Both the position numbers and the translations under genes were made by a program. Positions 1-13,670 of a DNA stretch of 64,000 bases are shown here, piece after piece. The DNA is from Acidobacteriaceae bacterium. GTDB taxonomy: Bacteria; Acidobacteriota; Terriglobia; Terriglobales; Acidobacteriaceae. The notes beneath the pieces are model-generated. The model saw only the letters and a program-made list of their open reading frames with translations, had not been told where the DNA came from and searched no databases. Position 1 is the first letter of the stretch; the number at the start of each line of letters is the position of its first letter. The stretch is from assembly GCA_025355505.1 (NCBI GenBank), contig JANXZM010000109.1:1-64000 (forward strand), in the 5' to 3' direction.

Positions 1-91
1 GCAGGGCTACCGGGAGATCCCCGCGCTGCTGACTGCCCTGGCCCACGCGGTTTCTAAGAAGGGCGTTGCCGAGGACGTGAAGGTTGCGTAA
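1..91 (+). CDS. C-terminal end of an unidentified protein (partial)
   Basis: The window opens inside a reading frame (frame 2) that runs about 29 codons to a TAA at 89-91 and ends in ...GVAEDVKVA. It is hydrophilic and partly helical, with no diagnostic motif. Too little is present to name the family. The frame is assumed to be genuine because it is open from the window edge and has a coding-like third-position G/C bias; the two other forward frames were not needed to explain it. Confidence 0.4.
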   Translation, partial: QGYREIPALLTALAHAVSKKGVAEDVKVA

Positions 92-115
92 CCTATGACA
101 GTCGGGAGCCGCTAA

Positions 116-487
116 CTTTCAACGGAGTTCCGGGCAATCTCGCATACGGTTGGAACAAGCACAGCAGATGGGAAGTATTACGCCCTCGCTTACTCAGATG
201 GCCGAAACTTACGGGACAAACTTGCTGTAGACTCCTTGGACTCCGCTCGAGATAACAGCATCAGGAACGTCCAGGGAAGCCTAATTGCCGAGAAGCAGAT
301 TACGGTTGACGGACACCTAGGTCGGGAGATTGAGGCTCGCGCCCGGGATGACAGATTCCTTGACATGCGTCTGATCTTGGCCAAGGATCGGCTATATGTA
401 CTCGAGGTTATGAGCACGAACGAACGGAATCGGGACAGTAAGAACATTCAGAAGTTCTTCGGCTCGTTTAAGCTGAACGGCACTTGA
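116..487 (+). pseudogene. 5'-truncated remnant of a small exported protein
   Basis: The frame is open from the stop at 113-115 to the TGA ending at 487. Conceptually it reads ...DGKYYALAYSD...LDSARDNSIRNVQGSL...GHLGREIEARA...RLYVLEV...KFFGSFKLN. This is the C-terminal two thirds of a secreted protein type common in Acidobacteriota and Planctomycetes (pattern: GREI/V, RLYLVxxRLYxL, FxxSFKL). The N-terminal signal peptide and first ~60 residues are absent, and there is no ATG, GTG or SD in the expected place; a TTG at 236 is the first possible start and lies mid-domain. I read it as a deletion remnant. The family match is from memory, not a search. Confidence 0.55.
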
Positions 488-632
488 GCGGGCGGGTGGC
501 CAACATCTGGTTGGTAAAGACAAGGCGGGTGGGCCACATTAACGTGGGAACCCATTGCAAGATAAGGACTAGCTCGCAATTCGAGATCTCAGGAGAACAA
601 TTCCTCTCCCGAATAGAAGACAGGAGGTCGCG

Positions 633-1700
633 ATGACCAGCCGTTTGCACATCATCGGATTTATCTTTTTGGTGTCGGTTATAGCATGTGCTCAGGACGT
701 GCCACGCATTCCCGATGATGGCCCCAATGAGAATTATCTCAAGCTAGAAAAGCTTGCGGAGCAAGGACTGGTCAAGGGCTGGGATTCGCGGCTAAAGGCC
801 CAAAGCCGGGAACTTAGAGACTACTTTGTGAAAAACGTCACAGTGTGCGTCCCCGTTCTCGCGGACAGGCTCGAGGAGATTTCCCGGCAGGAAACGGAGC
901 ACAAGTCAGATAAGCCCAAGCCTGAAGACCTTGCAACGCTCAGGAAGCAGATCGCGCGCGAGGGGCCCCTTAAATATACATTGGCCATAATACTAGCGGA
1001 GTCTTATTCGCACACTGACACCACCGGCAAGGCACGAATACTGGAAGTGTTAGATTCGATGTACACCCCCTCCAGCTACTACCGAGAAGATCTTCAAGGT
1101 CTCAATTGGGCACTCCTGATCGTAGGTAGGGACGCAATTCCAGTCATGTTCAAGTTGGCAGACCACCAAAGAGACGTTGTCCGCTGCAGTTTACAAGACA
1201 CGCTGAATTCCGTCAGTGAAGAGATTTCTAAGACCGCGCCGAAATTGGACTGCAAGTTGCCGCGTGAGTCGCAAGAACAGCGTCTAGATGCATGGTGGCA
1301 ATGGTGGACGGGGGAGGGGGGAAGGGGACTTTCCCGACGTTTCCCGACCCTTTCTCTGGGGAATGACCGGCGGGTGAGCCAGGCCTTCGCGTTCATCCAG
1401 AGTCTGGGGAGCGCCGCCAGGGATTCCCAAAAGCACAAATACCTCTTTTTCGCCGGCACTTACACGGGAAAGGATAACAGGGGCATTTACGCCTACCGCT
1501 TCAATACCGCGTCCTCGGAACTAACTCCGCCAGGTGGAGCGGCAGAAACCACCAACCCCTCGTTCCTCGCCATCGACCCGACCCTCCGCTTCCTCTATAC
1601 GGTGAACGAAGTCCCGAACTATAAAGGTGGCAACAGCGGAGCGGTCAGCGCCTTCTCGATTGATCTCCAAACCATACCGACAGCCACACCGGCGCTCTAA
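633..1700 (+). CDS. Chimeric ORF: exported hypothetical protein fused to lactonase N-terminus
   Basis: ATG at 633 follows a good SD (aggagg) 7 nt upstream. Residues 1-20 form a signal peptide with a lipobox-like V-I-A-C. Residues ~21-228 are an alpha-helical hydrophilic domain that I do not recognise. From about residue 267 the sequence changes character: KYLFFAGTYTGK, GIYAYRF, NPSFLAIDP, FLYTVNEV and SGAVSAFSID are hallmarks of the first blades of the 6-phosphogluconolactonase-type seven-bladed propeller. The frame then stops at 1700, well short of a full propeller. So the ORF looks like an in-frame accident joining an exported protein to the head of a decayed lactonase. Whether a stable product is made is unclear. 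Confidence 0.5.
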   Translation: MTSRLHIIGFIFLVSVIACAQDVPRIPDDGPNENYLKLEKLAEQGLVKGWDSRLKAQSRELRDYFVKNVTVCVPVLADRLEEISRQETEHKSDKPKPEDLATLRKQIAREGPLKYTLAIILAESYSHTDTTGKARILEVLDSMYTPSSYYREDLQGLNWALLIVGRDAIPVMFKLADHQRDVVRCSLQDTLNSVSEEISKTAPKLDCKLPRESQEQRLDAWWQWWTGEGGRGLSRRFPTLSLGNDRRVSQAFAFIQSLGSAARDSQKHKYLFFAGTYTGKDNRGIYAYRFNTASSELTPPGGAAETTNPSFLAIDPTLRFLYTVNEVPNYKGGNSGAVSAFSIDLQTIPTATPAL

Positions 1701-1904
1701 CTTTAGTGGATCACTTCCCCACCCAAGGCAAGACGCCGCGCAACTTCGAAATCGATCCCCCGGCAAGCTTCTGTTCGTAGCCAATCAACACACCGGCAAC
1801 AGCGTAGTTTTTCGGATCGACCCTAACTCCGGAAGACTAACTCTCACCGGCCAAACGCTCCACGTCCCCCACCCGTGAGCCTGAAGTTCATGCCCGCCGA
1901 ATAA
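1432..1904 (+). pseudogene. 6-phosphogluconolactonase-family propeller, internally deleted and frameshifted
   Basis: N-terminal blade motifs (YLFFAGTYTGK onward) are in one frame to about 1690. A second frame then carries QGKTPRNFEIDP, the late-blade motif of this family. After a frameshift near 1755, GKLLFVANQHTGNSVVFRID follows, and a second shift near 1870 is needed to reach the normal C-terminus PVSLKFMPAE and the TAA at 1902-1904. The middle blades (roughly 150-200 residues) are missing. Intact relatives are ~350-400 residues and secreted or cytosolic lactonases. The pattern shows one large deletion plus at least two frameshifts, so the gene is dead. Confidence 0.7.
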
Positions 1905-1995
1905 CGATCTGCATCTATATATGACCGTGCCCAACGTGCTGCCTGTGCTTCGCTAGCCTCGTACGTAATATTTTTGTAATGTAACCCCGGTCACG

Positions 1996-3717
1996 GTGAA
2001 TAACTCTGCCGACCACTATCCTCCAGCCATGGCATCGATCACACAGGGGTCTAAGGAAACTCAACCGCAGAAACTTCATCCCAAAGGTAGTAACGCGCGC
2101 ATCCTGCTTTGCTCTGTTTTCGGGCCTTATGCGCAAGACGACGAATTTGGCAGCCGCGCCATCAATCCGATGGAGCTTTATCACAACCAGGTCACGCGTG
2201 CCCAAGGCAGCTTCTCGCTGCGCATGTTCCATCGCTCTTGGGGCATCATGATGATTCAGGAAAATGTTTCGGCGCCCTGCTGCGTGCTCGATTTCCCCAC
2301 CCGCGAAGCCTTTGCTCGTGAATTAACCACGCAGCATTACGACGTCGTGGGTATCTCTTCGATTATCGTGAACGTGGGCAAGGTTCGCGAGATGTGTCGC
2401 ATGGTGCGCGAACTATCTCCGCATTCCGTGATCGTGGTGGGCGGACACGTCACTGCCATTCCCCGCGTGGAAACTATGATTGACGCTGACCACATCGTGC
2501 GCGGAGAAGGTATTTCCTGGATGCGCCGCTACCTCGGAGAAGACGAGCGCGCGCCCATCCGCCATCCCGCCATTGTTTCCGGTATAGAAACGCGCATCAT
2601 GGGAATTCGCCTTCCGCAGCGCAAGGGCGGCACGGCAGCCACCATCATTCCGTCCGTGGGCTGCCCCATGGGGTGCAACTTCTGCACCACGTCCGCTTTT
2701 TTTGGCGGCAAAGGAAAGTTTGTCAACTTTTACGAAACCGGCGATGAACTATTTGACGTGATGTGCGGAATCGAAGCAGAACTCAAAGTACATTCCTTCT
2801 TTGTGATGGACGAAAACTTCCTGCTGCACCGCAAGCGCGCCATGCAACTGCTGGAACGCATGAAGCAGGCCGGCAAGAGCTGGGAGCTTTCCGTCTTTGC
2901 TTCCGCCAATGCCATTCGCAAATACACCATGCTCGAACTGGTCGAACTCGGCGTTTCCTGGGTCTGGATGGGTTTGGAATCTCCCAAGTCTGGTTATAGT
3001 AAGTTGCAGGGTGAGGACATTGGGCAACTTACGCGCGAGCTTCGCGAACACGGGATACGCGTACAGGGTTCGACCATCGTCGGACTCGAGCACCATACCC
3101 CCGATAACATCATCGAGGAAATCGAATCGGCGGTCGCCTACCAGACCGACTTCCACCAGTTCATGCTCTACACCCCGGTTCCGGGTACGCCGCTTTACCA
3201 GGAAATGTCCGATCAGGGTCGTCTGCTCAAGGACATTGACCCCGCCGATATCCACGGCCAGTACAAATTCAACTTCCGGCACGCCTCCATCTCCCGCGAC
3301 GATTCCAAGAGGTTTCTGGATTGGGCCTTCTGGCGCGATTTCGAGAGTAATGGACCAAGTCTCTATCGCATGTGCCAGACCATGCTCAAAGGCTGGCAAC
3401 GCTACAAGGACCATCCCGATCCCCGCGTCCGCGAGCGCTTTACAAGAGAAGTAAAGAAGCTCAGCAGCGCTTACAATGCCGCACTTTGGGTAATGGAGAA
3501 AGAATTCAGGAAAGTCAATTGCAGCGTAAGCGACCGCATTCACAAACTGCGCCGCGAGGTCGAGATGGAATTCCCCATCATCGCCCGCCTCGCCGCAGCA
3601 TCGCTCGGCCCCATCTTATTGTGGTTCACCCGCCGAGAGGAAAATCGTTTGGCCAAAGGACGCACCTACGAACCGCCAACCTTTATCGAGCGCCGCAATT
3701 GGGTCTCGGCTTCGTAA
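1996..3717 (+). CDS. B12-binding radical SAM enzyme
   Basis: Protein of ~573 residues (GTG 1996) or ~562 (ATG 2029); neither start has a strong SD. Residues ~35-180 resemble a cobalamin-binding domain (HYDVVGISSI, VIVVGGHVTAIP, DHIVRGEG). The radical SAM cluster motif is C223-x3-C227-x2-C230 (CPMGCNFC), followed by a TIM-barrel region with MDENFLL and GLESP-type strands and a long C-terminal helical region with a hydrophobic stretch near residue 530. This is the class B-like architecture used for methyl transfer to unactivated carbon or for ring and skeleton chemistry. The substrate is not evident. The gene converges on a second radical SAM gene, with a shared terminator between them. Confidence 0.85.
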   Translation: MNNSADHYPPAMASITQGSKETQPQKLHPKGSNARILLCSVFGPYAQDDEFGSRAINPMELYHNQVTRAQGSFSLRMFHRSWGIMMIQENVSAPCCVLDFPTREAFARELTTQHYDVVGISSIIVNVGKVREMCRMVRELSPHSVIVVGGHVTAIPRVETMIDADHIVRGEGISWMRRYLGEDERAPIRHPAIVSGIETRIMGIRLPQRKGGTAATIIPSVGCPMGCNFCTTSAFFGGKGKFVNFYETGDELFDVMCGIEAELKVHSFFVMDENFLLHRKRAMQLLERMKQAGKSWELSVFASANAIRKYTMLELVELGVSWVWMGLESPKSGYSKLQGEDIGQLTRELREHGIRVQGSTIVGLEHHTPDNIIEEIESAVAYQTDFHQFMLYTPVPGTPLYQEMSDQGRLLKDIDPADIHGQYKFNFRHASISRDDSKRFLDWAFWRDFESNGPSLYRMCQTMLKGWQRYKDHPDPRVRERFTREVKKLSSAYNAALWVMEKEFRKVNCSVSDRIHKLRREVEMEFPIIARLAAASLGPILLWFTRREENRLAKGRTYEPPTFIERRNWVSAS

Positions 3718-3766
3718 CTTTCTTACCACATTGCCCGGGTTCGCACACCTTGGTTGAGTCAAAACA

Positions 3767-3793
3767 AAAGGCCGCTCTTTTCGAGCAGCCTTT
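3767..3793. terminator. Bidirectional intrinsic terminator between convergent radical SAM genes
   Basis: AAAGGC at 3767-3772 pairs with GCCTTT at 3788-3793, and GCTC 3774-3777 with GAGC 3783-3786, around a TTTTC loop. A T-rich run (ctttatttctt) follows on the plus strand and an A-rich run (aaaacaaaa) precedes it, so it can terminate both the 1996-3717 gene and the opposing 3836-5989 gene. Confidence 0.8.
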
Positions 3794-3835
3794 CTTTATT
3801 TCTTAAGCGAAGAGCGAACAGCCAGGAGCCGAACT

Positions 3836-5989
3836 CTAGTCTCCCGCCACCGGCTCGCCAACTTCTTCACTTTTCTTCGCCGCGCCATTCCCATTTGCCG
3901 GAGCGATCGCCGAAGTAATCGCGCCCAGCGGAATGAATCCACCTTCCGACGTTGCCGGCTTCTCTTTCAGCACCACTTCCCGATAGAGCTGCGCCATGCG
4001 TGCGTCGTAAGCCGCGTCGTTCTTGACCTTGTTGCTTTCGGCCTTGCTGTCGCGCGCGCGTTTCTTTTCTTCGCGCGCCGTCTTCGCAATGCCCAGCTTG
4101 TCGAGATCGTGCTGCACTTCGTGCGTAACGATCTCTTCCCGCAGGTAGAGCGCGTGCTCTTTGTCTTCCATGTTGACTTTCTTGCCGCCCGCGAAAATCT
4201 CGTGCCGTCCGTGCTCTTCGTACCACTTGGTGAGCGTGGAAGTCATGTGCATCTTCTCAATAATGTTGCGCCAGCCCACGCCCGTGTTGTAAGCGCAGAA
4301 GCTGATCTCGCCTTCCTGCGTAGCGTAAGGAATGATGCACTGCTCGGTCCGCCGGAAGTCGTAGTTGAACAAATCCTGAAACCACATCCCGGCTATGAAC
4401 AGGAAATTCCACCGGTCCTGCCGCCGCTTCATAACGTCGTCAATCGTACGATCCGGACCAACCTTGCCATAGTTCTTGCCCGTAGCATTAAAGTTCTTAT
4501 CGAACTTCTTAAGCAGATCCGTCATCTTGAAATGCTTAGGCGACTGAAACGAGTCGTAGTTCTTCATCAAAGCCAAAGCCATCCCAAACACAGTCCAAAA
4601 CTTCGAACGAGCCGCATCATTGACCTTCGCAATATCCTTAGCCAGCTGATCGCCCTTAAGGAAAGCAGTAACCGGCACCGCCTCCTTAGTCTCCTTATCT
4701 ATCATAAGAGCCATCCCAGTCCCACAGTTCGGATGACATCCGCAGGAGAGTTGGCCCCAGTCGTTGTTGTTGTCTTGGGAGTGCATTACGTCGGCCCAGT
4801 CTGAAAAGGTGCTCATGAAGCTGATTGGGTACCAGTCTCGGGCGGGGACTCCGAAGCCGGTTTGATTTTTTACGTCGTGGGCAAGGTGGGCTAGTGTGTA
4901 ACGCTGCGCTTCGCGACGTTCGTCGGTTATGGCTTCGTCTCTTCCGGTGAAGGAGACTGGTTGGAAGCTTAGGAAGCCGATCTTTTTGGGATTGTCTAAT
5001 GCGAACTGGATGATGCGTCCTACCTGCTCGTTGTTGATGCCGTTGATGATGGTAACCACGGGGACGATTTCGCAGCCGGCGCGATGCAGGTTGTCGATGG
5101 CTTTCAATTTCACATCGAACAGATTGCCTACGGCTCGGTGATCGTTGGCGGCGTTCCCTATTCCGTCGAACTGGAGGTAGGCGTAACGCATTCCGGCTTC
5201 TACTGCTTGCTCGCAGAATTCAAAACTCTTGGCGAATTCGATGCCATTGGTTGCGGCTTGCACGCTGTTGTATCCAACTTTGCGAGCGTAACGAACTGCG
5301 TCCAGGAAATACGGGGAGAGGGTTGGCTCGCCACCGGAGAACTGGACCGACATCTGACGACGGGGCTTGATGGTGATGGCGTTGTCGAGCACGGTCTGGA
5401 TTTCTTCCCAGGTAAGTTCGTGAACGTAGCCGACCTGGTTCGCGTCCATGAAGCAGGGATCGCACATCATATTGCAGCGGTTGGTGAGATCGACGGTGAG
5501 CACCGAGCCGCGACCATACTTCACGGTGGAAGAGCCGTGGTGGTGCAGCTTCTCGTCGTTGTGAGCCTTGATGTCGCGGCCCGGGAAAACGTCTTCGAGG
5601 TGTTGCGAGAATTCGGTGTCGATCGACATCAAGTCTTCGAAGTGGCCGTGCTTGACGCAGTCCTTGACCATCCAAATCTTTCCGTCGCGTTCGATGATCT
5701 GGGCCTTGATCTCTCCTACTTTTTCGTCCATGAGAACGTCAACCGGAAGGTGGCCGTCGAGAATCTGCTGACGGATTTCGGGGACGCACTTGGGACAAAG
5801 CGAATCGGTGGAGCGCGGCCAGCCAAGCGGCGGCTTCGACTTTTCCCAGGACTTGAGCAGCGGCTTGTCGGACCACTTGGGAGTTGGCGACGTATTCGGA
5901 GCAACGCGGTTGAGGCGCTCGAAAACTGCCCATGCGCCTGTGGCGGCAACGGTCACGGCCTTCTCAACATATTTAATCGGCTTGTGCAT
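3836..5989 (-). CDS. Tes/MSS-like radical SAM enzyme, candidate membrane-spanning lipid synthase
   Basis: The ATG at 5989 (717 aa) is preferred over an upstream GTG at 6073 that adds 28 low-complexity residues. Seen: an N-terminal CPKC pair (C65, C68) with a further C111 in an MVKDCVKHG context; the radical SAM motif C172-x3-C176-x2-C179 preceded by DLTNRCN; FSGGEP at 217-222; a later Cys-rich segment (SCGCHPNCGTG); and a C-terminal CIIPYA...FCAYN region. This multi-cysteine layout is the one I associate with archaeal tetraether synthase (Tes) and bacterial membrane-spanning-lipid synthase homologues, which couple two lipid tails by sp3 C-C bond formation. Acidobacteriota make iso-diabolic acid lipids, so the role is plausible but inferred. 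The C-terminal ~90 residues are charged and Ala-rich. Confidence 0.75.
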   Translation of the reverse strand: MHKPIKYVEKAVTVAATGAWAVFERLNRVAPNTSPTPKWSDKPLLKSWEKSKPPLGWPRSTDSLCPKCVPEIRQQILDGHLPVDVLMDEKVGEIKAQIIERDGKIWMVKDCVKHGHFEDLMSIDTEFSQHLEDVFPGRDIKAHNDEKLHHHGSSTVKYGRGSVLTVDLTNRCNMMCDPCFMDANQVGYVHELTWEEIQTVLDNAITIKPRRQMSVQFSGGEPTLSPYFLDAVRYARKVGYNSVQAATNGIEFAKSFEFCEQAVEAGMRYAYLQFDGIGNAANDHRAVGNLFDVKLKAIDNLHRAGCEIVPVVTIINGINNEQVGRIIQFALDNPKKIGFLSFQPVSFTGRDEAITDERREAQRYTLAHLAHDVKNQTGFGVPARDWYPISFMSTFSDWADVMHSQDNNNDWGQLSCGCHPNCGTGMALMIDKETKEAVPVTAFLKGDQLAKDIAKVNDAARSKFWTVFGMALALMKNYDSFQSPKHFKMTDLLKKFDKNFNATGKNYGKVGPDRTIDDVMKRRQDRWNFLFIAGMWFQDLFNYDFRRTEQCIIPYATQEGEISFCAYNTGVGWRNIIEKMHMTSTLTKWYEEHGRHEIFAGGKKVNMEDKEHALYLREEIVTHEVQHDLDKLGIAKTAREEKKRARDSKAESNKVKNDAAYDARMAQLYREVVLKEKPATSEGGFIPLGAITSAIAPANGNGAAKKSEEVGEPVAGD

Positions 5990-6251
5990 TCTGCTCTCGC
6001 TTTCCTCAGCTTGGGAGTTAGAACTGTCCCCGCAGTCCCGCGAACGGGAACCAGCGTAAATAGACTTGTCCACGAAAAAACCTGGAAGGTTCGATCCGTG
6101 GAATGGGTCAGATTGATGCTATTGAATCCGTGAAATTTAGGCACGAAGAAGGCAATGAAGGGAAGAAAAATGCGGTTAAGCGGGGAAATGGGGGATTTTA
6201 TGGGGGTAAGTTGTTGAAAAAGAAGGGAGGGGAGGGGAACCTCACATGAGT

Positions 6252-6521
6252 TCATATCGGTTCTAATTCCACAACATCCACATCCTGACCGAGCGTCTCC
6301 TTCGTTAAATCCACGACGTGTTGATGATGAGTAAACAAGATAGGCTGGATACCCGGACTGAGATCCGCGAGGGCTGTCAGCCCCTAGCCTGTTCGCCCTT
6401 CGTCAAAGGTCGTCAAAATGTCGTCGCCGATAAACGGCATGGAATTGCTCCGCTGAGCATAGTCTTCGATATATGCAAGTCGTACGGCGAGGTAGAGTTG
6501 GCCGCGCGTGCCTTCGCTCAT
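6252..6521 (-). pseudogene. C-terminal relic of a YhaN/SbcC-like AAA ATPase
   Basis: One reverse-strand frame reads MSEGTRGQLYLAVRLAYIED, then PFIGDDILTTFDE, then ILFTHHQHVVDL and ends VVELEPI-stop at 6252-6254. These are the ABC signature, Walker B/D-loop and H-loop of the long coiled-coil ATPases of the YhaN/SbcC type. An in-frame TAG interrupts it after FDEGRTG, and a TAA lies just upstream of the ATG at 6521. The ~900 residues that should precede are absent. It is therefore a 3' stub of a DNA-repair or defence-type ATPase. Confidence 0.7.
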
Positions 6522-6568
6522 ACCTTACTATGCAGTCTGTACGGCCGTCATCCCGCCGTCCTACTGGG

Positions 6569-6625
6569 GAGACGAGGAACAGGTCACTGGAAGAGTTGGA
6601 GCGGCGGCTTGGTTTCTCCGAGTAA
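6569..6625 (+). pseudogene. C-terminal stub of a RelB-like antitoxin
   Basis: The frame reads ETRNRSLEELERRLGFSE followed by TAA at 6623-6625. This is the usual C-terminus of RelB/DUF6290-type antitoxins (TRSLEELERELGL). It sits immediately upstream of, and overlapping, a RelE-type toxin frame, as in intact relBE pairs. No recognisable ribbon-helix-helix N-terminus is found upstream in this or neighbouring frames, so only the toxin-binding tail remains. Confidence 0.5.
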
Positions 6626-6905
6626 AACGTCGCCGGGCAGAGGCTCGCGGGTTGAAATCAACCACAGCGCCGAGAAACAAATACAGAGACTAGACCGCTC
6701 GGCGCAGGGGCCTATCGTCCGATTTCTACGGGGGCGGGTGCAGGCGGCGGACAACCCTCGACAATGGGGCAAGCCGCTCCACGGCGACAAAGGCGGCTTG
6801 TGGCGGTATCGCGTGGGCGACTATCAGCTGATCTGCGACATACAGGATGAGCGCATCACGGTGTTGGTGGTCAGCGTCGGACATCACAAGGATGTGTATC
6901 GCTGA
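6609..6905 (+). pseudogene. RelE-family mRNA interferase toxin, start region degraded
   Basis: Residues encoded from about 6650 read VEINHSAEKQIQRLD, VRFLRGRV, DNPRQWGKPLHG, GLWRYRVGDYQLICDIQD and VVSVGHHKDVYR-stop, covering nearly the whole RelE fold with the catalytic-type Arg and Tyr positions (WRYRVGDYR-like) kept. The expected ATG-x-W start is lost; the only nearby in-frame initiator is TTG at 6609, inside the antitoxin stub. A long upstream extension of the frame to 6318 is antisense to the ATPase relic and not coding. The toxin may be silent, or rarely expressed from TTG; with its antitoxin broken, loss of expression would be expected. Confidence 0.6.
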
Positions 6906-7044
6906 GCTTTTGTCACTAAACTCTTGTCGCCGCGCGCCCGAATCTTCCTCAACAACTCCGCTGGCTCGTTCCTCACAGCCCGGAACCGCTCGCGTGCGCT
7001 ACAATCCGCTCGTACTCTAAAGAACGAATTGCCTGGAGGCATAT

Positions 7045-7845
7045 ATGGAGCTCGGATTCCCGGTAGTCACCGTTGCCATCGTCATCTTCGTCATCTACCT
7101 GCTGAGTTCCATCAAGATCCTGGCCGAATATGAGCGCGGCGTCATCTTCCGGCTGGGACGCCTGCAAGGGCACGCTAAGGGACCGGGCATCATTCTGGTC
7201 TTCACCCCAATCGACCGCATGGTGCGCGTTTCGCTCCGCCAGGAAGCGCTCGAGGTTCCGCCGCAGGACATCATCACCCGCGACAATGTCACCCTTAAAG
7301 TGAACGCGGTCATTTTTCTGCGCGTGATCGATCCCAACAAGGCGGTGGTGGAAGTCTCCAATTACATCTACCAAACTTCACAGTTTGCCCAGACCACGCT
7401 GCGCTCGGTGCTTGGCGAACAGGAGCTCGACGAATTGCTGGCTCACCGCGACAAAATCAACCTGCGGCTGCAGAGCATCCTCGATACGCACACCGCGCCC
7501 TGGGGCGTGAAGGTCACCAACGTCGAAGTTAAGCAGGTGGATATGCCCGAGTCGATGCTGCGAGCCATGGCCAAGCAAGCCGAGGCGGAACGGGAAAAGC
7601 GCTCGAAGATCATCCACGCCGAAGGCGAGTTCTCTGCCGCGCAACGCCTGGTGGATGCCGCGCACCTGTTGTCCACCGAACCGGCCAGCATTCAGTTGCG
7701 CTATCTGCAGACACTCACTGAAATCGGCGTCGAGAAAAACACGACCGTTGTGTTCCCCGTGCCGATCGATTTCTTTTCCGGCATTCAGCGCTGGCTCGCG
7801 TCCGTTCCGGCGCCACCGACACCACCAGCGCCAGCGGGGAAATAG
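7045..7845 (+). CDS. Slipin/stomatin-like SPFH membrane protein
   Basis: 266 aa; ATG at 7045 with SD-like tggagg upstream. One N-terminal hydrophobic helix (residues ~6-24) is followed by the SPFH/band-7 domain: [36 protein letters not shown]-like [15 protein letters not shown] and the long A/E/R-rich helix [19 protein letters not shown]. It ends in a Pro/Ala-rich tail. Slipins form membrane rings that scaffold proteases and lipids; in many bacteria an NfeD partner sits next door, but none is seen here. The next gene, a SPOR protein, starts 18 nt downstream, suggesting one transcript. Confidence 0.9.
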
Positions 7846-7863
7846 AGGTCATCGCCACTTTCC

Positions 7864-8475
7864 ATGCCTACGGCGCAGCAGGATACGGAAATCACGCTTG
7901 GCACCGGCCGCATGCTGGCCATTTTTTTCGGCTTTGTTTTGGTCTGTGCTTTCTTCTTTGCCACCGGTTTTTCTTTGGGCAGAAGAACCACCACCGTCGG
8001 CGGCGCGGGTGGCTCGCTGAGCGCTCCTGCCGGAACACCGGCGACTATCGTTCGGCCCTCGGCCGCAAAGAACGGCGTTCCCCAGCCAACGCCGCAGTCG
8101 GGCGACTTTAGCTTTTACAAGGCCGTAGGCGAAAAAAATACCGACGCCGCGTTCACGCCTCCGCCTCAGGATTCGAAGGCGCAGCCAGCGGCCTCAACCG
8201 TTGAAGCGCCGCCAAAAACGGCCACAGACGCCGCAACCGCAGCACCCTCGATCGGCGGTTACTACGTACAGGTCGCCGCGGTCAGCCGTCAGGAAGACGC
8301 TGAAGCGCTGGTCGAGGCTCTGAAGAAGAAGCAGTATCCAGCCTTCGCCGCTGGCAATGCTCCCGCCGACAAGTTCTATCACGTTCAGATCGGACCCTAC
8401 GCCGACCTGAAAGACGCCGAGGCCATACGCGCCTACCTCATCAGCGATGGCTACAATCCGATTGTAAAAAAATAA
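7864..8475 (+). CDS. SPOR-domain membrane protein
   Basis: 203 aa. Residues ~18-38 are a transmembrane helix, followed by a Pro/Ala-rich linker (~45-130) and a C-terminal SPOR domain (~133-203) with YYVQVAAVSRQEDAEALVEA and YHVQIGPYADLKDAEAIRAY motifs and a terminal NPIVKK. SPOR domains bind denuded glycan strands at the division septum, so a periplasmic cell-division or wall-remodelling role is likely. It follows the slipin gene by 18 nt; no strong SD precedes the ATG at 7864. Confidence 0.85.
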   Translation: MPTAQQDTEITLGTGRMLAIFFGFVLVCAFFFATGFSLGRRTTTVGGAGGSLSAPAGTPATIVRPSAAKNGVPQPTPQSGDFSFYKAVGEKNTDAAFTPPPQDSKAQPAASTVEAPPKTATDAATAAPSIGGYYVQVAAVSRQEDAEALVEALKKKQYPAFAAGNAPADKFYHVQIGPYADLKDAEAIRAYLISDGYNPIVKK

Positions 8476-8481
8476 AGGGGA

Positions 8482-8566
8482 TTTTGTAATCGGGTAATCT
8501 GGCAATCGAAACCGCACCGGCCCCGGGTTTAAAATTACCAAATTACAAATTACACAATTGCCAATT
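8482..8566. repeat. AT-rich intergenic inverted repeat (GTAAT / ATTAC type)
   Basis: TTTTGTAAT and GGGTAATCTGG on the left are mirrored by AAAATTACC, AAATTACAAATTACAC on the right around a G+C-rich centre. It has the same word composition as the element at 63886-63974. Its position between a stop codon and the next gene suggests a dispersed intergenic element, possibly folding as a 3'-end hairpin. Confidence 0.45.
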
Positions 8567-8588
8567 CTCTCTGTTACCCTTCCTCATC

Positions 8589-8888
8589 ATGGCTCACACC
8601 GCGCCCAATCTCGATCGCTTCCTGCACGCCATTGCCGACCCCACGCGCCGCCGCATTCTGCGCGCACTCAAAGAAAAAGGCGGATGCTCCATCGCGAAGG
8701 AAACCGGGCTCTGCGCCGCCGATATCGAGCAGCGCGTAAAGTTGGCGCAGCCCACCGTTTCGCATCACATGCGAATTCTGGAAAAGGCCGATCTGGTGGA
8801 AGCCAACAGAGAGGGCCACTGGCGCTGGTACCAGCGCAACGAAAAACTGATTGCAGAAACGATGCGAGAATTGAAAGGACAACTTTAG
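8589..8888 (+). CDS. ArsR-family winged-helix regulator
   Basis: 99 aa. The order ALADPTRRRILRAL, then a helix-turn-helix with KLAQPTVSHHMRILEKADLV, then the wing EGHWRWYQRNEK is the ArsR/SmtB fold. A cysteine pair occurs (GGCSIAKETGLC, C32 and C39 region), but the classic ELCVCDL metal motif is absent, so a metal ligand is unproven. The segment between helices 2 and 3 (ETGLCAADIEQRV) is slightly longer than usual. It may regulate itself or the wall-associated genes upstream. It converges on the histidine kinase gene 16 nt away. Confidence 0.85.
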   Translation: MAHTAPNLDRFLHAIADPTRRRILRALKEKGGCSIAKETGLCAADIEQRVKLAQPTVSHHMRILEKADLVEANREGHWRWYQRNEKLIAETMRELKGQL

Positions 8889-8904
8889 GCGGATTGGGCG
8901 GCGG

Positions 8905-11900
8905 CTATGATCCCGCACCCGCCATAAACGCTTTTTCCTCGGCGCTTTTGTCTTTGTCTTTCGTCTTTATGGCAGGGTTCCCTTCCCTCTGGCTCAGCTT
9001 ACGCACATGTGAGATCAGGTCCGCCACCTCGAACGGCTTTGCCAGCGATGGCACGCCGTGTTCCTGGAGGAAGCTTCGCGTCTGCGGGTCGGTCACGGTG
9101 GAAAACGTCAGCAGCAGGCCTTTCTCCAGGCCGGGACAGTTTTTCGCGATCCACTCGTACATTTCCCGTGCGCTGCACCCGCCCGGCATACGGCCATTCA
9201 TCACGATCACGTCAAAAGAGCCCTTACGGAGCTGAAGCTGCGTGTCCTCCACGCTCATCGAGGTAGTAACTTCGGCTCCCGCACCGACCAATACGTCCCG
9301 CTCAAATTCCAGTACCGCTTCTTCGTCTTCGACCAACAACACTCGCCCAACCAGCAGCGACTCGCGCCGCGTGGGCATCACCGTCTCCGGCAACGCCGAT
9401 TTCTCGCTCGCCAGCAAGCGAACTTCAATCGTCGCCCCGCCCTCTTCCCGATTACGCGCCACGATTTCCCCGCCATGTTCCTTGACGATCCCATAGCAGA
9501 TGCTCAACCCAAGGCCGGTTCCCTTGCCCACCGACTTGGTGGTATAGAAGGGATCGAAAATCCGGGTCGGGTCCTTGATTCCCGGACCGCTGTCATCGAA
9601 TTCGACACACACGAAAGCGTCTTTCTTGAACACGCGTACTTTCAATACACCGCTGCCCTCACCCTCCACCATGGCATCGAGCGCGTTGTTGATAATGTTC
9701 AGGAAGACCTGCTCCAACTGATGCGGATCGGCTACTACCGAGGGCAGGTCCTCGGGGATTTCGCGTTCCAACGAAACGTTGTTGACCTTCAAATCGTATT
9801 CGCGCAGTGTGAGTGACTCTTCCAGCACCTTGCATAAGTCCACTTCCTGCTTCTGCGGCTTGCTCTGGCGCGCGAAAGAAAGCAGATTCTGCACTACCCG
9901 GTGGGTTCGCTGGGCCTGCTTGAACAATTTGCGGACATAGTCGGCCGAACGGTGATCAAGACCCGCACCTTCCAGCAACTGCGCGTAACCGAGGATCGCG
10001 GTCAGCGGATTATTCAATTCGTGCGCCACACCAGAAATCAATTGGCCAACGGCCGACATTTTTTCGCTTTGCAGCAATTGCTCCTGCGTCCGCCGCAAAT
10101 CTTCGTAGGCCCGGCAAGTCTCCTCGTAGAGCTGCACCTTTTCAATCGTCGTCGCCAGTTGGCGGCTGATGGCGACCAGCAGATTCTCATCGTTACTGGA
10201 ATAGTGCCGGTCTTCCTTGCTGGCAATACCCATGATGCCGATGGGTTTGTCTTTGCTCCAGAGCACAACCCATATCCAGTAAGGCAACCGGTCGGCACAC
10301 ACAAACTCCACCACGGCCGGTGGCAGGTGCGGCATGAAATCCTGGGTCACCACTTCCGCTCGCGAGCGCATCACCAGATCGCCCAGGCCTTCCGGAAAGA
10401 TAACTTCGGCCATGCGCACGCGTGCCTCGCTGCGCGGGCCCCAACCCGCGCGCCGCCGGTAGGTGCCATCCGGTTCCGCAGCCAGATACACCGAACCGGT
10501 CTCCGCGCCAAACAGCGAGATCACCTGGCGCAGCGTCAGGTTCAGAATTTCATCCAGGTCGAACGACTGCGTCGCAATGACTGCCATCGCGTTGAGCGCG
10601 TTCAGTTCGCGATTCCGCCGCCGCATTTCGTCTTCCGAGCGCTTCTTCTCTGTTATGTCGAGAACGAAACCTTGATAGCGTTCAATGTGTCCGCCGGAAT
10701 CGCGCGTTGCAAAGCAGCTCTGCGCCACCACCAGCGGCGTGCCATCCTTGCGCCGCACCGTAATTTCGAAGTTGCGCACGTAGTTGTGCGCCTCGATTTC
10801 CTTGCGAAAAGCCTCTCGCTCCTCGGGAACCGCGTGCAGCACGCTGCCCATGTCGAGCGCCATCAACTCGTCCCGGCTGCCGTAACCAAGCATGGTGACA
10901 AAGGCGTCGTTGCAGTCGAGCAACTCGCCATTTAGCGTGGCTACGAACACGCCTTCCTGCACCTGCTCAAACAGCATGCGGTACTTTTCTTCCGCCACCT
11001 GACGTGCGGTCGTATCGTGCACCACATGGATGGTGCCTTTCTGCTGGCTGCCCTGCTCCGCATACGATGAGGTCGAAACCACCGACTGCCCGCCGAAACA
11101 CGGATCCATGCCCTCCGTCAGCCCCGAGCCGCGCTCGCAATACGGGCATCCGCTCCAGTTGCGTGTTTGCGGCAGAACTTCTTCACACAGATTGCCCAGT
11201 ACATCGGCCGGCGCCTGTCCCAGCCGCTGCAGCAGGGCTTGATTGGTCTTGAGGATGCGGAAGTCCGCGTCGTGCGCCAGAATCAGATCCTGGATGGAAT
11301 CGAAGGTATTCATCCACTGCCGCTGCGAGCGCAGCACCTGCTCCAGCAACCGCAGATTCTCCACCGCAATACCCAGCGTCTGCGCCGCCGTTTCCAGAAA
11401 TTCCAGTTCTTCCCGGGTGTGGCGCCGGCTGCCTGAGCAACCGAGCGACAGCATCCCGATCACCGCCTTCTTGCCCAGAAACGGCAACCGCACCACGTGA
11501 TGAATGCCGTGCTTCTCCAGTTGTTGCCGCTCCGGTTCCGACATCTCCGAGAGTTTCATCACCGCCGCCCGGTTTTCCTGCAGGACGCGGGCCTGTGCTT
11601 CATCGGTTCCGATTTGCCCGATCGCTCGCAGGAATTCCAGTGAGAGGCCTGCATGCTGCGTGGGTACCAGATTGTCACCTTCCATCAACTGGAACCACGC
11701 TGCCCTTGCCCCCACTACGGTCTTCAGTTTCTCCAGCGCAGTCTGCATCATCGGAGCATGATTCTGGCCGCGCGCAATGGTGACCGTCAACTCATTCAGC
11801 ACCGCCAGCCGGCGCAGGCGCAGCCACGAGTCGTCCAACACCACCAGCAGGATGCTCGAACCGAACAACACTTCCGCCAACAGGTAACCTTCAGTGGGGA

Positions 11901-12462
11901 TGCGACTGGTCAATGGAGGCCAGTGCAGATTCAAGGTCAGCAGGCCGGCGCCGAACAGGAGAGGCCCCAGGCCAATCCGTCCGAAGCGATATCGCACCAG
12001 TTCGACGGCTGCCCCGGCCGCAATCAGCCGGCATGCTAGATCCAACCCATGTTCGAGGCTTTTGGAATCGGGAAAATACAGGGGCCGCATGGCGGCGCAG
12101 ACCACCAGCACCCACGCAACCGCCACCAACGCCGTCAGCGCTCGCCGCGCCTGCGCCGACATCAGCGCCGTCGCCGCAAACAACCCCATCGCCAACACAA
12201 AATCCGCCTGCGCGAATGCGGCCATCACCTTCGACGCCGGGTGCAACTCACCCGCGCCCGATACCCACAGAAACGCCCCATAGGCGACCCAGCCCGCTCC
12301 CCACGCCAGCAGAGATCGCTCCCGAAAAACCCGGAAGAAAAGCAGACTGACCGCCACCACGATCAGGGCAGCGGTTTCCCGTGCCGTCAACCAGGGGACG
12401 GTCAACATGCCAACCGAATTCCCAAATAGTCCGGCAGGATCCATAGATAAGCGCACGAACAC
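8905..12462 (-). CDS. Hybrid membrane histidine kinase with degenerate receiver
   Basis: ~1185 aa from a GTG at 12462; ATG codons at residues 7 and 19 are alternative starts. Residues ~28-210 hold about seven hydrophobic helices. Then come GAF (~225-375), PAS (~385-485) containing a cysteine group C439, C442, C455 that could bind metal or a cofactor, PAS (~495-605), GAF (~625-780), HisKA with H814 in GVAHELNNPL, HATPase_c (N926, DSGPG, GTGLGL) and a C-terminal receiver (~1038-1160). The receiver keeps the acidic pair (E1045, D1046) and K1142 but has Asn1089 where the phospho-Asp belongs (VMNGRMPG). It is divergent from an REC-HD-GYP gene 116 bp away, a likely partner. Confidence 0.9.
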   Translation of the reverse strand: MFVRLSMDPAGLFGNSVGMLTVPWLTARETAALIVVAVSLLFFRVFRERSLLAWGAGWVAYGAFLWVSGAGELHPASKVMAAFAQADFVLAMGLFAATALMSAQARRALTALVAVAWVLVVCAAMRPLYFPDSKSLEHGLDLACRLIAAGAAVELVRYRFGRIGLGPLLFGAGLLTLNLHWPPLTSRIPTEGYLLAEVLFGSSILLVVLDDSWLRLRRLAVLNELTVTIARGQNHAPMMQTALEKLKTVVGARAAWFQLMEGDNLVPTQHAGLSLEFLRAIGQIGTDEAQARVLQENRAAVMKLSEMSEPERQQLEKHGIHHVVRLPFLGKKAVIGMLSLGCSGSRRHTREELEFLETAAQTLGIAVENLRLLEQVLRSQRQWMNTFDSIQDLILAHDADFRILKTNQALLQRLGQAPADVLGNLCEEVLPQTRNWSGCPYCERGSGLTEGMDPCFGGQSVVSTSSYAEQGSQQKGTIHVVHDTTARQVAEEKYRMLFEQVQEGVFVATLNGELLDCNDAFVTMLGYGSRDELMALDMGSVLHAVPEEREAFRKEIEAHNYVRNFEITVRRKDGTPLVVAQSCFATRDSGGHIERYQGFVLDITEKKRSEDEMRRRNRELNALNAMAVIATQSFDLDEILNLTLRQVISLFGAETGSVYLAAEPDGTYRRRAGWGPRSEARVRMAEVIFPEGLGDLVMRSRAEVVTQDFMPHLPPAVVEFVCADRLPYWIWVVLWSKDKPIGIMGIASKEDRHYSSNDENLLVAISRQLATTIEKVQLYEETCRAYEDLRRTQEQLLQSEKMSAVGQLISGVAHELNNPLTAILGYAQLLEGAGLDHRSADYVRKLFKQAQRTHRVVQNLLSFARQSKPQKQEVDLCKVLEESLTLREYDLKVNNVSLEREIPEDLPSVVADPHQLEQVFLNIINNALDAMVEGEGSGVLKVRVFKKDAFVCVEFDDSGPGIKDPTRIFDPFYTTKSVGKGTGLGLSICYGIVKEHGGEIVARNREEGGATIEVRLLASEKSALPETVMPTRRESLLVGRVLLVEDEEAVLEFERDVLVGAGAEVTTSMSVEDTQLQLRKGSFDVIVMNGRMPGGCSAREMYEWIAKNCPGLEKGLLLTFSTVTDPQTRSFLQEHGVPSLAKPFEVADLISHVRKLSQREGNPAIKTKDKDKSAEEKAFMAGAGS

Positions 12463-12578: not shown

Positions 12579-13670
12579 ATGCCTAATGACCGCATCCTCG
12601 TAGTAGACGACGAAGAAACAATCCGCGAGATTGTTTCCGCAATGCTTGGCGGAGCCCATTTTCAGACACGCCAGGCCGCCAGTGGCATTGAAGCCCTCTC
12701 GATTCTGGAATCGGGTGAGGAATTCGATCTCGTCCTCTCCGACCTGATGATGGCCGAAATGGATGGGATCGCCCTTTTGGAACGTGCCAAGGAACGTTAC
12801 CCTGACATGCCCATCGTCATGGTCACTGCGGTCCACGACATACAGGTCGCTCTGCAGGCCCTGCGCAATGGAGCGTACGACTACCTGCTCAAGCCCTTCG
12901 AGAGGGAGCAACTACTCGCCACGGTTCGCCGTGCGCTGGAGAATCGCCGCCTCAAACGCGAAAACGATGCCTATCGCACCAACCTCGAGGCACTCGTTGC
13001 CGCCCGTACCCAGCAATGGAAAACGGCGCTTTCCAACCTGGAGAAGTCCTACGACATCACCCTCGAAGTCTTGGGCGATGCGCTAACCCTCAAGGACGCC
13101 GAGACCCAACACCACTCCCGACGCGTCACCGCATTCACCATCGCCATTGCGCGCAAAATGGGCCTGCCCAAAGAAGAGATCAGCGTCATCGCCCGCGGAG
13201 CCTACCTGCACGACATCGGCAAGATGGCCATTCGCGACGACATCCTGCACAAGCCCGGCAAGCTTACGGACGACGAAATGGCCATCATGAAGGAGCATTC
13301 TTACCGCGGCTACAAGATCATCTCGCGCATCCCCTTTCTGGCGGAGGCTTCCGAAATCATTTATGCCCACCAGGAGCGCTATGACGGACTGGGATATCCG
13401 CGCGGCCTGAAGGGTGAGGAGATCCCGCTAGGGGCGCGAATTTTCGCGATTGCCGACACACTCGATGCCATGAGGTCTGACCGCGATTACCGTAAGGCTC
13501 AGAGCATGCAGGCTGTGCGCGAGGAAATCAAACTCTGGTCGGGTCGCCAGTTCGATCCTGAGATCGTGAAGGTATTTCTCGAAATGCCCGACGATATCTG
13601 GGAAGACCTGCGGAAAGATATCAATGAGCAGAACCCGAATGGGCCGAGCCCGTCTTTCCTGAAAATTTAG
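12579..13670 (+). CDS. Response regulator with HD-GYP c-di-GMP phosphodiesterase domain
   Basis: 363 aa. Receiver residues 5-120: acidic pair D10/D11, phospho-acceptor D55 (LVLSDLMM), T83 and K105 (LLKPF). A helical linker (~120-165) leads into HD-GYP: H178-H179-SRRV, H211-D212 in HDIGK, HKPGKLTDDE, AHQERYDGLGYP (GYP 272-274) and ARIFAIADTLDAM. All metal ligands and the GYP motif look intact, so hydrolysis of cyclic di-GMP is expected. The gene diverges from the large hybrid kinase, the obvious candidate for phosphorylating D55. Possible -10 (TAGAAT, 12549-12554) precedes the ATG at 12579 by 24 nt. Confidence 0.9.
   Translation: MPNDRILVVDDEETIREIVSAMLGGAHFQTRQAASGIEALSILESGEEFDLVLSDLMMAEMDGIALLERAKERYPDMPIVMVTAVHDIQVALQALRNGAYDYLLKPFEREQLLATVRRALENRRLKRENDAYRTNLEALVAARTQQWKTALSNLEKSYDITLEVLGDALTLKDAETQHHSRRVTAFTIAIARKMGLPKEEISVIARGAYLHDIGKMAIRDDILHKPGKLTDDEMAIMKEHSYRGYKIISRIPFLAEASEIIYAHQERYDGLGYPRGLKGEEIPLGARIFAIADTLDAMRSDRDYRKAQSMQAVREEIKLWSGRQFDPEIVKVFLEMPDDIWEDLRKDINEQNPNGPSPSFLKI

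Follow-up and report, generated by a model that had tools for sequence, protein, structure and literature searches.

Do two large radical S-adenosylmethionine (SAM) genes that face each other across a short gap in an acidobacterial genome form one pathway for membrane-spanning lipids, or are they separate enzymes that lie together only locally? We addressed this question for the genes at positions 1996-3717 and 3836-6073 of a 64,000-nucleotide stretch of Acidobacteriaceae bacterium DNA (assembly GCA_025355505.1, contig JANXZM010000109.1, positions 1 to 64,000; hereafter the window), which belongs to a 4.16 Mb genome with a completeness of 96% (G000). A preliminary description of the window, made from its letters alone, had proposed that the pair builds such lipids and then methylates or cyclises them. 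Our analysis favours, at a probability of about 0.68, two separate radical SAM enzymes that lie close together as a local peculiarity of one Acidobacteriota genus, the minus-strand gene specifying a coupler of the Mss type and the plus-strand gene a probable methylase of sp3 carbons. Mss is the bacterial membrane-spanning lipid synthase reportedly described by Sahonero-Canavesi in 2022. The two genes are:

1996..3717, plus strand: B12-binding radical SAM enzyme of 573 residues, predicted to be a cobalamin-dependent C-methylase (open reading frame, domains, fold matches)
3836..6073, minus strand: Tes/Mss-superfamily radical SAM enzyme of 745 residues (open reading frame, domains, phmmer, fold match, alignments)

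The open reading frames are convergent and separated by 118 bp from stop to stop. Relatives share 52-77% identity with the B12-binding protein (alignment of 23 sequences) and 29-96% with the Tes/Mss-like protein (alignment of 21); both frames are conserved across these relatives and are therefore real genes, in agreement with the preliminary account of two large convergent radical SAM genes. That account began the minus-strand gene at the ATG at 5989, which is Met29 of the longer frame and is invariant in an eight-sequence alignment. The start of the plus-strand gene is uncertain, since the alignments with most relatives begin only at about codon 20-28.

The minus-strand protein resembles archaeal Tes in sequence and predicted fold

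The protein encoded at 3836-6073 carries the Pfam Radical_SAM domain preceded by an N-terminal zinc ribbon (PF23545). It matches the tetraether lipid synthase Tes of Methanocaldococcus jannaschii (MjTes, MJ0619, also termed GDGT-MAS; structures 7tol and 7tom) with a phmmer E value of 2.7e-59 over query residues 121-617 (7tol), and its predicted model aligns with 7tom with a Z score of 27.7 and an r.m.s.d. (root mean square deviation) of 3.8 over 460 residues at 29% identity. The next fold family, MoaA, scores a Z of 15.5; for this model, the structure search consisted solely of a second look with VIA-align. The protein retains the following elements:

5786..5797, minus strand: CPKC (C93, C96), first half of a rubredoxin-like metal site with C139/H142 as its second half, matched to C9, C12, C33 and H36 of MjTes
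5453..5476, minus strand: SAM cluster motif CNMMCDPC (C200, C204, C207), from alignment
4385..4387, minus strand: Met563, aligned with the labile Met439 of archaeal Tes beside the C-terminal cluster

The Tes-type rubredoxin-like site, C-X2-C ... C-X2-H, is thus present as C93, C96, C139 and H142, and the C-terminal cluster of Tes, with its labile methionine and adjoining tyrosine, is represented by C450, C579 and C593 together with Met563 and Tyr583, the counterpart of archaeal Tyr459. C450, M563, C579, Y583 and C593 were mapped to MjTes by the phmmer alignment and are invariant in 21 sequences; the MjTes cluster ligands, Met439 and Tyr459 are named in PMC9433317. The CPKC pair and SAM cluster noted in the preliminary description correspond to C93/C96 and C200/C204/C207, and its 'two further cysteine groups' to C444/C446/C450 and C579/C593. 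With a Tes fold over the core, the protein is, by sequence and by its predicted model, a member of the Tes/Mss superfamily, as that description had held.

The window protein differs from archaeal Tes by an added N-terminal helix and a C-terminal tail, and the readable sequences of its clade have no counterparts of Tes C73, C77 and C80. In 48 of 59 loci, the window protein among them, no cysteine occurs in the 45 residues that precede the SAM motif (43 distinct sequences; some of the 59 loci are overlapping stretches of one gene). Four of the remaining loci carry CxxxCxxC (L081-L084), one has a third form (L085) and six are unreadable, five being short frames cut by a stop codon and one (L074) being interrupted at the motif. 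L081-L084, from another acidobacterial family (f2), form a second Tes clade that is closer to the archaeal type and has the complete motif of the N-terminal cluster. The third form, at L085 9626-11197 in a member of the window's genus (G010), is Tes/TrsS-like and has DPEACDCATTSHNEPC before the SAM motif; matches of similar extent at 30-32% identity occur in G004 and G018, and partly in G008. In family f2, loci L077-L080 place Mss near division and wall genes (FtsA, FtsQ-type POTRA, Mur ligase, MurG-like).

The window protein is the only full-length Tes-type protein of its genome, three other matches covering the radical SAM core alone at 24-31% identity. A single full-length family member likens this genome to that of E. 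aggregans, for which Zeng 2022 (PMC8941075) reports one Tes homologue with 32% identity to Tes. The same source places Koribacter and Solibacter Tes homologues at 40-42%, and these may fall into the clade whose N-terminal cluster is complete (L081-L084-like) and not into that of the window.

Iso-C15 tails as the likely substrate and iso-diabolic acid as the likely product

Bacterial Mss is described as Tes-like and is tied to iso-diabolic acid and fatty acid coupling (PMC13274423, PMC11868695); likened by description, the window protein shares this architecture and would share the proposed role. In PMC13274423, tail coupling is assigned to Mss and the reduction of esters to Ger. The window protein is likely a known kind of tail-coupling enzyme. 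Carrying the mechanism over from archaeal Tes, we infer that two SAM-derived radicals would activate two iso-C15 acyl tails at their terminal carbons, that the C-terminal [4Fe-4S] cluster with the labile Met563 would park the first radical as a C-S intermediate, and that attack on this intermediate by the second tail would yield iso-diabolic acid, probably mostly ester-linked.

Among 297 Acidobacteriota genomes (the phylum draw, with a threshold of 1e-40), 162 have a Tes/Mss match, 34 of them in the window's family, f1. No f1 genome appears among the 20 of 135 misses listed, which are seemingly ordered by kinship. In family f5, 115 of 124 genomes carry a Tes/Mss orthologue at 1e-150 or below. 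Because orthologues fill f1, the enzyme likely joins iso-C15 tails into iso-diabolic acid, by analogy with the cultured producers: this acid makes up 12-30% of the fatty acids of Edaphobacter (PMC11354219) and 27-49% of those of the Occallatibacter group (PMC12935467).

The spanning lipid made here is probably mostly ester-linked. PF09989, which we take to be a marker of Ger/PlsA, has no match in the window genome (96% complete) and matches in 4 of 14 control genomes, T. maritima included; an ester-linked spanning lipid is therefore likelier than a branched glycerol dialkyl glycerol tetraether (brGDGT). Ester-linked spanning lipids are cited for Koribacter in PMC13274423. A Ger-free ether route via Elb-like reductases near Mss is possible by analogy. 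Six of the 11 Mss loci fetched from the genus (L046, at 2841-6457, L068, L069, L072, L074 and partly L073) share a stretch with a fatty-acyl/thioester reductase gene pair, one member combining HAD, NAD_binding_4 and Sterile domains and the other having NAD_binding_4; the first of these is present at 93% on contig C66 of the window genome. The Elb ether-lipid operon of Myxococcus also has FAR-like, HAD and epimerase proteins (PMC9131029).

The plus-strand protein is a predicted stand-alone methylase

2296..2511, plus strand: B12-binding domain match, residues 101-172 (Pfam)
2662..2685, plus strand: SAM cluster motif CPMGCNFC (C223, C227, C230), from alignment

The protein encoded at 1996-3717 combines the Pfam B12-binding and Radical_SAM domains, and thus has the N-terminal B12-binding domain and CX3CX2C motif of class B methylases; the cobalamin-binding N-domain and CPMGCNFC of the preliminary description are both borne out. 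Its model has a pLDDT (predicted local distance difference test) of 82.5, and its nearest solved folds are CysS, MgmA, AprD4, TsrM and TokK, together with OxsB in VIA-align, most of which are cobalamin-dependent C-methylases acting mainly on sp3 carbons. The N-terminal B12-type domain and the radical SAM barrel are like those of the class B methylases CysS, MgmA, TokK and TsrM, whereas identity in the structural alignments is 14-19% and the C-terminal helical domain is the protein's own. These helices span residues 434-553, and their most hydrophobic 19-residue stretch, 526-544, may be a membrane contact.

The hopanoid methylase HpnR, HpnJ and the lipid-type TIGR04072 are likewise B12-binding radical SAM families named for lipid pathways, but the window protein scores 39, 58 and 34 bits against their cut-offs of 650, 578 and 360. 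Its best NCBIfam scores, to BchE (64 bits) and HpnJ, lie far below the curated cut-offs, so that none of the BchE, HpnJ, HpnR and TIGR04072 models claims it. No Grs-named model is among its 12 NCBIfam matches; Grs is also not among the Foldseek and VIA-align rows listed, which are uninformative on Grs.

A genome scan yielded at least 578 candidates of this family confirmed by tblastn at 1e-3, of which the best 80 underlie the named-locus results. All 80 are from Acidobacteriota, nearly all from metagenome-assembled genomes and none from a cultured genome, and the nearest come from fen, palsa and other soil; the source organism of the window is likewise an uncultured acidobacterium. The protein is likely a stand-alone B12-radical SAM enzyme, probably a methylase according to its model, of a family that is uncharacterised and patchy in Acidobacteriota. 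Most likely, it would act as a class B cobalamin-dependent enzyme that adds a methyl group to an unactivated sp3 carbon of its substrate, possibly a lipid.

The B12 gene is not a fixed partner of Mss

In the phylum draw, with B12-gene orthologues counted at 54% identity or more, 23 of 29 carriers have a Tes/Mss match, which is distant only in four (G055, G060, G254, G302); six carriers have none (G083, G160, G259, G291, G305, G314). Conversely, 5 of the 34 f1 genomes with Mss carry the B12 gene; assembly of the spanning lipid thus does not require the B12 enzyme. In a further draw of 397 genomes, at least 98% complete except for the window's own, the B12 gene is listed for 79 genomes including 32 of f1, so that the first draw understates how common the gene is in this family. 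In f5, the B12 gene is present in 49 of 124 genomes, and Mss (1e-150) occurs in 44 of these 49 carriers and in 71 of the 75 non-carriers, that is, with no association (p 0.32). The five f5 carriers without Mss are genomes in at least 370 contigs, and some may thus be gaps.

Of the 80 named loci, whose flanks reach at most 10 kb on each side and are often cut by contig ends, 3 have Mss close to the B12 gene (tblastn 1e-15), and these three are the same contigs as those of G007, G008 and G012 of the window's genus. We found no conserved neighbourhood around the B12 gene: with a home-made gene caller, the most frequent cluster of neighbours occurs in 10 of the 80 loci. The first neighbour gene calling took the longest open frames and may include antisense frames.

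In the window's genus, 20 of 24 genomes have the B12 gene, whole or as a fragment; in four of the 20, its distance from Mss is no more than 5 kb, in two orientations. The two genes converge in G000, 118 bp apart; the B12 gene is on the same strand as Mss in G007 (139 bp, beside a cut-off Mss end) and in G008 and G012 (about 4 kb). An Mss end lies 16 kb from the B12 gene in G013. Each gene also occurs alone: G006 (98% complete) carries the B12 gene but lacks an Mss orthologue, and in G022 (95% complete) Mss is present and the B12 gene is not. The B12 gene sits between Mss and a decayed lactonase gene in the window and on the other side of the lactonase in L046, and in L066 a lactonase homologue directly adjoins Mss with no B12 gene between, indicating that the B12 gene has moved. 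In the genus tree, several branches of which have low support, two Mss-linked B12 copies split off early within one of the two halves; the closeness may be old within the genus group, and it is not general. The plus-strand enzyme is therefore not a fixed partner of Mss. Given the counts in named loci and genus carriers and the movement of the gene, we rejected gene linkage as proof of a pathway; a conserved operon around the B12 gene was likewise rejected on the basis of the commonest neighbour cluster.

Weighing the alternatives

Several observations weigh against two separate enzymes of the kinds proposed here. The model of the Tes/Mss-like protein is of medium confidence (pLDDT 66.9), the window protein lacks the residues that hold the N-terminal auxiliary [4Fe-4S] cluster in Tes (C73, C77, C80), and it scores 320.9 bits on NF045702 (tetraether lipid synthase), under the cut-off of 450 bits. 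L083, a clade II paralogue and the one member scanned of the clade whose N-terminal cluster is complete, scores 591.8 bits on the same model. Having a Tes-like anatomy but falling below this cut-off, the window protein is best called a bacterial Tes/Mss-superfamily enzyme. The reference for the comparison is archaeal Tes alone, and for the product assignment we infer that the cultured producers of iso-diabolic acid belong to f1. The best VIA-align row for the B12 protein is AprD4, a dehydratase that is not known to use cobalamin (Z 21.1), so that neither cobalamin use nor methylation is certain. Finally, the two genes are associated across the phylum, Tes/Mss being present in 23 of 29 B12-gene carriers versus 139 of 268 other genomes (Fisher p 0.005) and in 37 of 49 genomes when all B12 matches at 1e-60 are taken (p 0.0015), in tests that ignore shared ancestry.

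A somewhat probable explanation is that the B12 enzyme acts on an unrelated substrate (a hopanoid, cofactor, peptide or small molecule) and neighbours Mss by chance, consistent with the lack of a conserved neighbourhood in the 80 named loci, the carriers that lack Tes/Mss and the low BchE and HpnJ scores; repeated closeness to Mss within one genus, the phylum-level association and the hydrophobic C-terminal segment argue otherwise. Alternatively, Mss would build iso-diabolic acid and the B12-radical SAM enzyme would then add the extra C5 or C6 methyl of methylated spanning lipids. C5/C6 methyls are known in Acidobacteria (PMC13274423), an enzyme adding the C5 methyl is mentioned without a name in the extract of PMC10087280, the fold resembles mainly sp3-carbon methylases, the two genes are associated across the phylum, and the B12 gene is frequent in f5 and lies close to Mss in four genus carriers, two linked members branching early with partly low support. 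The six phylum-draw carriers without Tes/Mss, the independence of the two genes in f5 and the rarity of Mss in the named loci nevertheless make this sequence of steps unlikely. Slightly more doubtful again is the further proposal that the B12 family is the C5/C6 methyl-adding enzyme and that its copies beside Mss are remnants of a spanning-lipid locus with Elb-like reductases. Of the lipid system put forward in the preliminary description, methylation is thus possible in view of the phylum-level association, and a two-enzyme system is possible but weakly supported: an association of the two genes appears across the phylum and is absent within f5.

The other two alternatives concern different chemistry. 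The missed Tes cut-off and the absent auxiliary cluster would fit a Tes-like protein forming another inter-chain C-C bond, such as a cross-link of the kind made by a glycerol monoalkyl glycerol tetraether (GMGT) synthase. We regard this as improbable, since Tes is the closest solved protein by both sequence and fold, the reactive C-terminal cluster, methionine and tyrosine are kept, and the f1 distribution agrees with iso-diabolic acid provided that the cultured producers belong to this family. Cyclisation of the spanning chain by the B12 enzyme, in a bacterial Grs-like role, is very improbable. Both cyclopentane brGDGTs and Grs homologues are described for S. usitatus (PMC10087280), but the NCBIfam matches of the window protein include no Grs-named model and its nearest folds are mainly methylases; the cyclisation envisaged in the preliminary description found no specific support.

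Significance

A Tes-type enzyme common in Acidobacteria is without the ligands of one archaeal iron-sulphur cluster and keeps those of the cluster that probably holds the radical intermediate, and the loss of the N-terminal ligands bears on the purpose of that cluster in Tes. The methyl groups of bacterial spanning lipids serve the reconstruction of past temperatures, and the enzyme adding them is mentioned without a name in the extract of PMC10087280; no brGDGT methylase is named among the hits listed from full-text searches of open-licence literature, which for archaeal relatives were 20 of 69. A B12-radical SAM family beside a tail-coupling enzyme is a concrete methylase candidate. Were it the C5/C6 methyl-adding enzyme, it would perform the modification underlying the MBT (methylation of branched tetraethers) palaeothermometer of soils and lakes.

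Surroundings of the pair

3766..3794, no strand assigned: 12-pair hairpin between both stop codons, flanked by A-rich/T-rich runs, probable bidirectional terminator
1409..1896, plus strand: lactonase gene remnant (PF10282) that has lost about 600 bp internally relative to L046 and marks a rearranged locus (domain and locus comparison)

The shared bidirectional terminator of the preliminary description has a physical counterpart in the hairpin at 3766-3794, for which a role in terminating both genes is plausible from its sequence; the terminator scan lists it on the minus strand only. The reading rests on stem length and position and not on the number of terminator-like sites, which is 14 in window positions 1-9000 against 10.4 (standard deviation 3.3) in shuffles. 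Neither a cobalamin riboswitch nor any other RNA 5' of the B12 gene was matched in Rfam at E ≤ 1 in the same interval.

Contig C66 of the same genome, which also holds the reductase genes, carries close to its end a second copy of the 3' part of the decayed lactonase gene (L241 11717-11991). Upstream of the Mss gene, the frame at 6318-6905 (+) contains a ParE-type toxin domain (PF05016) in its C-terminal half. Further along, a hybrid histidine kinase of 1185 residues with PAS, GAF and receiver domains is encoded at 8905-12462 (-) and is adjoined by an HD-domain response regulator at 12579-13670 (+).

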